Shown here in pieces: positions 39,571 through 43,117 of a DNA stretch of 64,000 nt. Source of the stretch: Armatimonadota bacterium (GTDB lineage Bacteria > Bacillota > Desulfotomaculia > Desulfotomaculales > Nap2-2B); the NCBI GenBank assembly GCA_023511535.1, contig JAIMBK010000008.1:1-64000 (forward strand), in the 5' to 3' direction. Each line of letters opens with the position of its first letter. The first letter of the stretch is position 1. Under the pieces are notes generated by a model. The model saw only the letters and a list, made by a program, of their open reading frames with translations, was not told where the DNA came from and searched no databases. The translations under genes were made by a program, and so were the position numbers.

Positions 39571-40644
39571 ATGGCTTTTTCCGACCAGGCACAGCAAAAA
39601 ACGGAAGCGCCGACACCAAGGCGTTTGCAGGAAGCCAGGCGGAAAGGGCAGGTGGCGAAAAGCCGCGATTTCTCGGCGGCGGTTGTGTTCATGGCGGCCG
39701 TGCTTTTCAGTTACCTGCTGCTGCCCAACGCCCTGGCCGGCTGGGAGCGCCAGCTGAACTGGTATTTCACCAATTGCCTGCACTTTCCGGTAAACGAGGA
39801 AGGCCTGATCGGGATCATTTTTGTTTCCCTGCGGTTAATAAGCTGGATGTTTTTGCCTTTTCTTTTGCTTCTGGTGGGGGTGTCCCTGGCCGTGCACCTG
39901 TTTCAGACGGGTTTTATCTTTGCCCCGGACATTATTAACCCTTCCCTCGAAAGGCTTAACCCCATCAACGGCTTAAGGCGCATTTTCAGTCTGCGCAGCC
40001 TGGTGGAACTGGTGAAAAGCATTTTTAAGGTGGCCGTGGTAGCCGCGGTAAGTTTTTATGTCGTGAAAGCGCATTTGCCGGTGCTGCTGCTGGTTTTCAC
40101 CCGGGCGCCGGGCGCGGCCTTCGGGACGGTGGCCAAGGCCCTTTTGGACGTGGCGGCGGCGGCCGGCGGCGCCTACCTGGCCCTTTCCCTGGGGGATCTT
40201 CTTTACCAGCGCTGGGAGCATATCCGGGGCCTGCGGATGACCAAACAGGAGGTTAAGGAAGAGCTGAAGCACACGGAAGGCGACCCGCTGGTGAAATCCT
40301 GGCAGCGCCGCCGGCAGCGGCAGATTGCCCTGAACCTCATCCGCGCCGAAGTGCCGCGGGCGACGGTGGTGGTGACCAACCCCGTCCGCCTGGCCGTGGC
40401 CCTCCGTTACGAAGAAAAGGAAACGGAAGCCCCCGTGGTCACCGCCAAGGGGGCGGGCGACCTGGCCCGGCAAATCAGAACAATTGCGCTGGAAAACAAC
40501 GTCCCGGTGGTGACCAACCCGGAAGTGGCCCGCATCCTTTACCACCAGGTGGAAATCGGCCAGCAGATCCCGGTGGCGCTGTACCAGGCCGTAGCAGAGA
40601 TCCTTGCCTTTGTATATAAGTTGAGGGGCAGAAGGGTTATTTGA
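39571..40644 (+). CDS. flhB: Flagellar biosynthetic protein FlhB
   Basis: QKTEAPTPRRLQEARRKGQVAKSRDF; TKQEVKEELKHTEGDPLVKSWQRRRQR; VVVTNPVRLAVALRYEE (NPxx autocleavage site). Confidence 0.96.
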   Translation: MAFSDQAQQKTEAPTPRRLQEARRKGQVAKSRDFSAAVVFMAAVLFSYLLLPNALAGWERQLNWYFTNCLHFPVNEEGLIGIIFVSLRLISWMFLPFLLLLVGVSLAVHLFQTGFIFAPDIINPSLERLNPINGLRRIFSLRSLVELVKSIFKVAVVAAVSFYVVKAHLPVLLLVFTRAPGAAFGTVAKALLDVAAAAGGAYLALSLGDLLYQRWEHIRGLRMTKQEVKEELKHTEGDPLVKSWQRRRQRQIALNLIRAEVPRATVVVTNPVRLAVALRYEEKETEAPVVTAKGAGDLARQIRTIALENNVPVVTNPEVARILYHQVEIGQQIPVALYQAVAEILAFVYKLRGRRVI

Positions 40645-40723
40645 GCTCAAACAGTCTAACCTGGAGCGAGCTATAGCGCCCTCTTCCGCTTAAAGCAATA
40701 CGAGTATGCGAAGTGGCAGGATG

Positions 40724-41008
40724 AATCGGATAAAAAAGAGGGCTGGAATTAGTCCGGGCGAGCGACATATGCGGAGGGTCGGGAACCGGACACAGCGCAG
40801 CCGCGGCCAGCGAACCGGCAGCGCGAATCGCGCAGGTAACAGTATCGTGAGCAGGAAACCACTAAACGCCTGAAAACTATAGGTGAGCAAGAAAACAAAG
40901 GTTCCGCGCGCATTATGCAGCGCTGCCTGGTTCGCTCCGCGGCAAGCTGATGTCTGGTCGACCCGGAGCATCGGAGCGAGCCGGACTAATTCCAGCCCGA
41001 TTACCGAT
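40724..41008. repeat. Long imperfect inverted repeat / candidate structured element between flhB and flhA
   Basis: GGGCTGGAATTAGTCCGG (40740-40757) with CCGGACTAATTCCAGCCC (40981-40998), 18/18; CCGCGGCCAGCGAACCGGCAGCGC (40801-40824) with GCGCTGCCTGGTTCGCTCCGCGG (40920-40942), small indels only. Confidence 0.85.
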
Positions 41009-41035
41009 CGCTTTTTAAGGAGGCACTTGCTGACA

Positions 41036-43117
41036 ATGCCGTTCCCAATCCAGGCGCAACTCCGCAAACGCTTGCGCACGAATACCGACCTGGCCATCGC
41101 CGGCCTGATCGTGGGGATTATCCTCATGATCATCATCCCCATGCCCCCGCAGGCGCTGGACGTCCTGCTTTCCGTCAGCATCACCCTGGGTCTGGTGATC
41201 CTTTTGATCACCATGTTTACCACCGAACCGCTGCAGTTTTCCGTGTTTCCGGCCCTTTTGCTGGTGACCACCCTTTACCGGCTGGCCCTGAATATCTCCT
41301 CCACCCGCCTGATCCTCGGCCAGGCCTACGCCGGCAAGGTGATCGACGCCTTCGGACACGTCGTGGTCGGCGGCAATTACATTGTCGGTTTCATTGTCTT
41401 CATCATCATCACCGTCATCCAGTTCGTGGTCATCACCAGCGGCGCCGGCCGGGTGGCCGAAGTGGCGGCCCGTTTTACCCTGGACGCCATGCCCGGAAAG
41501 CAGATGAGCATCGACGCCGAGTTTAACGCCGGGCTGATCAGCGAACCGGAGGCCCGGGAAAAAAGGCGCCGCCTGCAGCGGGAAGCGGACTTCTTCGGCG
41601 CCATGGACGGCGCCAGCAAGTTCGTGCGGGGCGACGCCATCGCCGGGGTGATCATCACGCTGGTCAACATCATCGGCGGCCTGGCCATCGGTGTCTTGCA
41701 AAAGGGGATGCCGGTGGCGGAAGCCGTGCAGACCTATACCGTTTTGACCATCGGCGACGGGCTGGTGGCGCAAGTTCCCGCCGTGCTGATTTCCACCGCC
41801 GCCGGCATCCTGGTCACGCGGGCTACCTCCGACGCCAATTTCGGCACGGAGCTGTCCCGCCAGTTTACCGCCTTTCCCAAAATCCTTTACCTGGTGGCGG
41901 GGATTTTATTCCTGCTGGCTTTGATTCCGGCCATGCCCCACTTCGTTCTTTTCCTGCTGGCGGCGGGGACGGGCCTGGTTGCCTACCAGTTGAGCCGGGC
42001 CAGGCAGCGCTCCGAATTTTCCCGCCAGGAAGCCCTGGTCAAGCAGCAAATGCAGGAAAAAAGCAAGCAGCCGGAAAACGTAACCACGTATTTCCAGGTG
42101 GATCCCCTCCAGATCGAGATCGGCTACAACCTGATCCCTCTTACCGACGAGAGCCAGGGCGGGGACCTGCTGGGCCGCCTGGCGGCGGTGCGCCGGCAGT
42201 GCGCGCTGGAACTGGGCATTTACGTGCGGCCCATCCGGATCAGGGACAACCTCGGCCTGCCCCCCAATGGTTACGTTTTCAAATTGCGCGGGGAGCAGAG
42301 CGCTTCCGGCGAACTTCTGACCGGTTATTACCTGGCCATGGATCCCACCGGAGAGGCGCGGGACGTGCCGGGAATTCCCACCAGAGAGCCCACTTTCGGC
42401 CTGCCGGCCTGGTGGGTGCCGGCCGGCGAAAAGGAAAGGCTGGAAAGGTCCGGCCTGACGGTGGTCGACCTCTCCACCGTGCTGGTTACGCACCTGACCG
42501 AATTTATTAAGGCCAATGCCCACGTGCTTTTGGGACGCCAGGAGGTCAAGGAACTGCTGGAGGCCGTCAAGGAAAAGGACCCGGCAGTGGTGGAGGAGCT
42601 GACCCCCGACCTGTTGTCCCTGGGGGAGATTCAAAAGGTACTGCAAAATTTGTTAAAGGAAGGCATTCCTTTGCGCGATCTGGTCACCATTGGTGAAGCC
42701 CTGGCCGACGGCGCCCGGATGTCCAAAGACCCCGATTTTCTCACCGAACACGTGCGGGCCGCCCTGGCCCGGACAATCAGCCGGCTTTACTTAAGCCCCC
42801 AAAATAAACTGGAGGTGATTACCCTGCATCCGAAACTGGAGCAATTAATCGTAGACTCCCTCCAGCAGACTCAGCTGGGAACTTACCCGGTGCTGGAGCC
42901 CGGGCTGGCGCGGAAAATCCTGGAAAAGATCAAGGCGGCCGCCGAGAAAATGATCCAGCGCACCGGAAAAGCGGTTATTTTATGTTCCCCGCGGGTGCGG
43001 CTGCCCCTGAAAAGATTTACGGAACGTTCCCTTCCGGGCCTGGGGATCTTATCTTTGAACGAGATTGTGCCGAATATTGAAGTTGAGGTGGTGGGGACGG
43101 TGAATGAGCAGACATGA
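41036..43117 (+). CDS. flhA: Flagellar biosynthesis protein FlhA
   Basis: FPALLLVTTLYRLALNISSTRLIL; DAMPGKQMSIDAEFNAGLI; start trimmed to ATG 41036. Confidence 0.97.
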   Translation: MPFPIQAQLRKRLRTNTDLAIAGLIVGIILMIIIPMPPQALDVLLSVSITLGLVILLITMFTTEPLQFSVFPALLLVTTLYRLALNISSTRLILGQAYAGKVIDAFGHVVVGGNYIVGFIVFIIITVIQFVVITSGAGRVAEVAARFTLDAMPGKQMSIDAEFNAGLISEPEAREKRRRLQREADFFGAMDGASKFVRGDAIAGVIITLVNIIGGLAIGVLQKGMPVAEAVQTYTVLTIGDGLVAQVPAVLISTAAGILVTRATSDANFGTELSRQFTAFPKILYLVAGILFLLALIPAMPHFVLFLLAAGTGLVAYQLSRARQRSEFSRQEALVKQQMQEKSKQPENVTTYFQVDPLQIEIGYNLIPLTDESQGGDLLGRLAAVRRQCALELGIYVRPIRIRDNLGLPPNGYVFKLRGEQSASGELLTGYYLAMDPTGEARDVPGIPTREPTFGLPAWWVPAGEKERLERSGLTVVDLSTVLVTHLTEFIKANAHVLLGRQEVKELLEAVKEKDPAVVEELTPDLLSLGEIQKVLQNLLKEGIPLRDLVTIGEALADGARMSKDPDFLTEHVRAALARTISRLYLSPQNKLEVITLHPKLEQLIVDSLQQTQLGTYPVLEPGLARKILEKIKAAAEKMIQRTGKAVILCSPRVRLPLKRFTERSLPGLGILSLNEIVPNIEVEVVGTVNEQT

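Follow-up and report, generated by a model that had tools for sequence, protein, structure and literature searches.

The bcr1 repeats are mobile intergenic repeats of Bacillota, present in the Bacillus cereus group, with a predicted conserved secondary structure, and are not known outside one species group. The REP/BIME/REPIN sequences, associated with the RAYT transposase, are intergenic palindromes present in many copies. The ERIC sequences are found in both orientations, with some copies carrying other sequence inserted at defined positions of the stem. In Enterobacteria, these ERIC (or IRU) sequences form imperfect, non-coding and MITE-like palindromes located between the genes of many operons; ERIC regions are transcribed, and orientation-dependent effects on mRNA have been reported (PMC2229807). 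Finally, MITEs moved by a DDE insertion sequence (reviewed in PMC10969869) lack ORFs, share terminal inverted repeats with the insertion sequence, and are flanked by duplications of 3–4 bp.

The locus described here lies in the 64,000-nucleotide stretch analysed (the window), between flhB (39,571–40,644, + strand; TIGR00328, E = 6.9e-110) and flhA (41,027–43,117, + strand; TIGR01398, E = 4.3e-257; starting at TTG 41,027 or ATG 41,036), two assignments of the original prediction that these models confirmed. The gap between both genes, previously given as about 390 bp, is real and measured 382 bp (40,645–41,026), most of it occupied by a large imperfect palindrome. The interval first assigned to the repeat (40,724–41,008) does contain it, but begins some 10–15 bp outside, and the alignment of the family places the approximate ends of the whole element at 40,735 and 41,002 (+, in the family-consensus orientation). 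The outer arms GGGCTGGAATTAGTCCGG (40,740–40,757, +) and CCGGACTAATTCCAGCCC (40,981–40,998, +) form, as had been claimed, an exact 18/18 inverted repeat, the left arm being of a type restricted to one subfamily of the genome. With arms of 16 bp or longer and a distance limit of 400 bp, no other exact inverted repeat was found in the 64-kb window, in which 0.0005 repeats of the 18/18 kind would be expected from a simple composition estimate. Enclosed by these arms is a core of ~215–220 nt (40,760–40,979, +), within which the inner arms, also as anticipated, pair with small internal loops (40,800–40,823, + strand, GCCGCGGCCAGCGAACCGGCAGCGC region; 40,919–40,943, + strand, GCGCTGCCTGGTTCGCTCCGCGGC region) around an apical variable loop of ~95 nt (40,824–40,918, +) that holds part of the local palindrome GCGCGAATCGCGC.

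The RNA folding that had been proposed as a check gave −165 kcal/mol for the palindrome (z = −8.3), with none of 100 shuffled sequences equally stable. In agreement with the first reading of the sequence, no supported ORF was found in the palindrome, the frames there being short or spurious, and no promoter-like site was detected at it. The two related direct repeats announced for the loop are present (40,847–40,859 and 40,883–40,896), but they are probably incidental, as other copies of the element, with different loops, do not conserve them.

Other copies had been one of the points to verify, their complete absence counting towards refutation, and the search of the own and related genomes revealed many of them. 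In the genome of the window (G000), the element gave 41 matches at E ≤ 1e-3, distributed over more than 30 places, with two copies 84% identical across the full length (e.g., G000:C71, over 275 bp). These included near-complete copies, internally replaced ones, and many 60-bp hairpins made of the outer arms. Some copies share the core and have a different, yet equally complementary, outer stem; several show the loop swapped for another palindrome or an extra hairpin inserted in the stem. The loop of L031, L033, L034, and L037 is replaced by a palindrome of the type CAATTGAGAAGTGGGATG...CTCTCAATTG, with related sequence also at L047. A nested hairpin with ends CCCRGCACTCAC and GTGAGTGCYGGG was found inside the core of L033, L034, and L037 in this genome and of L113, L117, L118, and L120–L122 in Desulfofundulus, where two families have it at the same point of the stem, directly following GAGCGAC, and L117 has it elsewhere. 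A second abundant repeat of ~57 bp (CTATTTTC...GAGAACGTTCGTTCTC...GAAAAT) appears in about 50 places of the same genome (e.g., the right flank of L028, G000:C92:19728-19850), in some cases as tandem units and frequently at the ends of contigs, and the palindrome is often located at the junction between two of its units.

The core, with other outer arms, was also detected in MAGs of Desulfofundulus, Desulfovirgula, and Desulfotomaculum. A covariance model (R1) built from 22 cores, the window copy among them, recruited the core in 37 of the order's 113 genomes, a single genome having as many as 22 copies, and in 18 of the 399 genomes of a phylum sample, six of these 18 belonging to the order itself. 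Most matches were 186–196 nt long, even in diverged sequence, and that of the window copy, part of the training set, spans 40,774–40,965 (+; 178 bits) and delimits the segment conserved across the phylum sample. A mechanical ORF caller placed none of the 100 copies whose flanks were usable inside an ORF; 78 were between co-directional genes (49 in sense and 29 in antisense), 13 between convergent genes, and 9 between divergent ones. In the own genome, 14 copies run in the same direction as their flanking genes and 2 run against them (15 and 2 once the window copy is counted), a bias much weaker elsewhere (35 vs. 27). The neighbouring genes are unrelated between copies, and an RNA tied to one adjacent gene or protein was rejected, as the neighbours change from copy to copy. 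No match to the element was found in the plasmid, phage, and viral collections searched, and no description of this palindrome family appeared in Rfam 15 or in the literature searched, ISfinder and subscription journals falling outside that search. The palindrome is one member of a dispersed, intergenic, non-coding family with a conserved core, found in many thermophilic and sulfate-reducing Bacillota.

In order to locate empty sites, the joined flanks of twelve copies from the Desulfofundulus genome G058, a single contig of 3,601,386 bp, and those of the window copy were queried against sister genomes. Five sites had contiguous empty orthologues, with duplications of 3–4 bp (AAC(A), ATC(A), TTT(A), CAGT, and CCA), whereas others in Desulfofundulus (L145, L142, and L139) showed no clean duplication, and for the window copy neither an empty site nor a target duplication could be shown. 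At the L143 site, a stretch of ~55 bp, GGTTATGGTGAACTACCGGGTTACGGTG (query positions 2269–2323), belongs to a sequence of which every Desulfofundulus genome has many copies. Analysis of the ends of the Desulfofundulus elements (GATACTGTCGCAAAACC) revealed 16 of 17 bases identical to the left end (GATACAGTCGCAAAACC) of an IS1182-type transposon in G089, from a sister species. The G089 end lies upstream of a transposase ORF that matches the NCBIfam IS1182 model with 1.4e-67, a score below the cut-off of that model, and only the left end of the transposon is visible, as the ORF runs into the contig end; for both reasons, the assignment of the transposase to the IS1182 type is probable and not certain. 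Partial copies of this transposon were found in G090, G018, and G032, and only stop-bearing fragments in G058; in that genome, short elements and transposase fragments were all that turned up when an autonomous transposon bearing both ends was sought. No autonomous transposon with ends of the G000 type was identified, nor any partner in the genome of the window. In the family of the window, where they adjoin GAAAAT/ATTTTC repeats, and in several others, the ends are of the GAAAAT/ATTTTC type, while in further families they are of the TTCAGTAAAACC/GGTTCACTGAA type. Different kinds of ends have thus carried the core, which is found on at least three terminal types.

The element is, as expected of a MITE, short, non-coding, and multi-copy, and target duplications accompany it at several Desulfofundulus sites. 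Mobility of the MITE type is the best reading because, in Desulfofundulus, the ends match those of an IS1182-type transposon and the insertions are clean, with duplications of 3–4 bp; this candidate of the original prediction thus gained support from the dispersed copies, the empty sites, and the target duplications. The feature between flhB and flhA is, quite probably, a copy, inserted there long ago, of a MITE-like mobile palindrome that is not autonomous. A DDE transposase acting in trans would have moved the copies, the mobilising enzyme in Desulfofundulus probably being of the IS1182 type, whose transposon shares the terminal sequence, and the core would have passed among elements whose ends are of three kinds or more. 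The complementarity of the arms would have been kept mainly by DNA template switching of one arm onto the other, and the conserved non-complementary internal loops by an additional selection, in the simplest case because they are recognised during mobilisation. The conservation of interior loops instead of ends is, however, contrary to the prediction for a plain MITE, and the concerted change of the two arms is likewise unusual for one.

Comparison among families showed that the best-conserved positions are not in the stems but in internal-loop segments (GGTAAC, GGCGAAG, GAGG; CCGAAGC-AGCCG), while the stems vary and remain paired. Within single genomes, the outer arms are copy-specific and yet complementary, two-sided changes are abundant, and one-sided changes give G.U about as often as A.C. 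Compensatory change in RNA commonly passes via G.U, and thus G.U would be expected above A.C among isolated mismatches if RNA pairing were being maintained. A neutral symmetric self-alignment of the arms counted 86 G.U against 77 A.C isolated mismatches, numbers that are not independent as the copies are related, and the R1 model columns gave 61 against 58; in the acceptor and T stems of 32 tRNAs from the same genome, a control that superseded one of only four, the figures were 23 and 0. An earlier count of 47 G.U against 24 A.C, derived from an RNA-energy-based fold, was discarded because such a fold favours G.U, and the self-alignment was used instead. The equal frequency of G.U and A.C, in large contrast to the tRNAs, makes correction of the arms at the DNA level, with one arm copied onto the other by template switching and not through a strand-specific RNA, the simplest reading of these alignments. 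Template switching is a known process (PMC7202029, PMC8794818). In the window subfamily, the conserved loop GAGG/CCGA has even been lost to full pairing, as GCGG/CCGC. Template switching does not, however, account for the other internal loops staying mismatched over such distances, and these remaining loops are likely under selection for a putative recogniser.

A further possibility, which we consider rather doubtful, is that the core would be an independent module recognised by its structure, with non-Watson-Crick internal loops conserved across the phylum sample, that hops between different mobile palindromes or into pre-existing hairpins, its own arms being continually rewritten by template switching. 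If real, such a module would amount to a selfish hairpin with its identity in the loops and not in the ends.

The same alignments bear on the large structured RNA among the original candidates, that is, a conserved sRNA or cis-acting RNA as the functional unit of a mobile RNA gene, with tandem G-A internal loops for protein binding or processing. Covariation on the R1 alignment is strong (8 of the 36 pairs changed on both sides; score 0.180 vs. 0.088 when shuffled, equalled in 0 of 500), and the conservation of non-Watson-Crick loops (GGTAAC, GGCGAAG, GAGG/CCGA) across the phylum sample, the constant core length in most copies, and the sense bias in the own genome would all suit an RNA. Nevertheless, the balance of G.U and A.C in the arms is unlike that of tRNA stems, the element takes both orientations relative to genes overall, several copies have the loop replaced by unrelated palindromes, and the window subfamily lacks one of the conserved loops. 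Moreover, no family of Rfam 15 matched the element at the gathering score, and scans of the window and of 22 related loci yielded only miRNA-like chance matches to long palindromes plus one genuine tRNA-Sec. A structured RNA is therefore disfavoured, and we regard it as improbable. The family resembles textbook RNA covariation, but the balance of mismatches argues for an origin at the DNA level, and the family is therefore well placed to show how template switching may mimic the conservation of an RNA fold; a related idea is found in PMC8794818.

A transposon mobilised as single-stranded DNA, or a derivative of it (IS200/IS605 or RAYT/REPIN type), whose folded top strand would be recognised and inserted without duplication, could be suggested by the subterminal hairpins, the intergenic sites, and the location of the element beside a fixed ATTTTC in some genomes; it is very unlikely given the duplications at the Desulfofundulus empty sites, the match of the ends to a DDE transposon, and the lack of G.T bias in the top strand. 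The proposed intra-operon attenuator or terminator, isolating flhA from the upstream flagellar genes, would draw on the great stability of the hairpin in the direction of transcription, but no terminator-like site (a hairpin followed by a T run) was found at the palindrome, the core also occurs in unrelated operons and in antisense, and the same-genus genome G001 lacks the full element, so this role is scarcely credible. The retro-type remnant (a retron or an ORF-less group II intron), though compatible with a large, structured, non-coding, multi-copy repeat, can practically be dismissed in view of the lack of any Rfam intron or retron match, the DDE-like duplications, and the absence of copies within ORFs.

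Regarding the MITE-like copy in the window, the flhB-flhA gap of G001 is of only 97 bp and contains a short sequence that, judged by eye, resembles the 3′ arm. Because of this resemblance, the insertion probably predates the split from G001, where it would have decayed. At its present site, the element is probably a tolerated spacer, with a predicted hairpin in the transcript, and not a regulator.

Among the systems described above, ERIC would be the nearest functional analogy, as the element shares with it the imperfect non-coding palindrome, the intergenic location in many operons, the MITE-like nature, the presence in both orientations, and the copies with sequence inserted in the stem. They differ in taxon, which is unrelated, and in size (127 bp for ERIC vs. 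about 285 bp), and unlike ERIC, the element has a core found across the phylum sample, conserved internal loops, and copy-specific outer arms. The bcr1 repeats are similar by their description and differ in their restriction to one species group. The REP/BIME/REPIN sequences share the many intergenic palindromic copies, but the element is much larger and has target duplications. With the MITEs mobilised by DDE insertion sequences (PMC10969869), it has in common the absence of ORFs, the duplications of 3–4 bp, and, in Desulfofundulus and as seen at the left end, terminal inverted repeats shared with an insertion sequence; in contrast to them, it conserves an interior core and not its ends, which are of at least three types. 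A core common to families with different ends raises the question of how non-autonomous elements switch their mobilising transposase. In conclusion, the element belongs to a kind already known, the MITE-like palindromes, of which it is an unusual variant, with a conserved interior instead of conserved ends.
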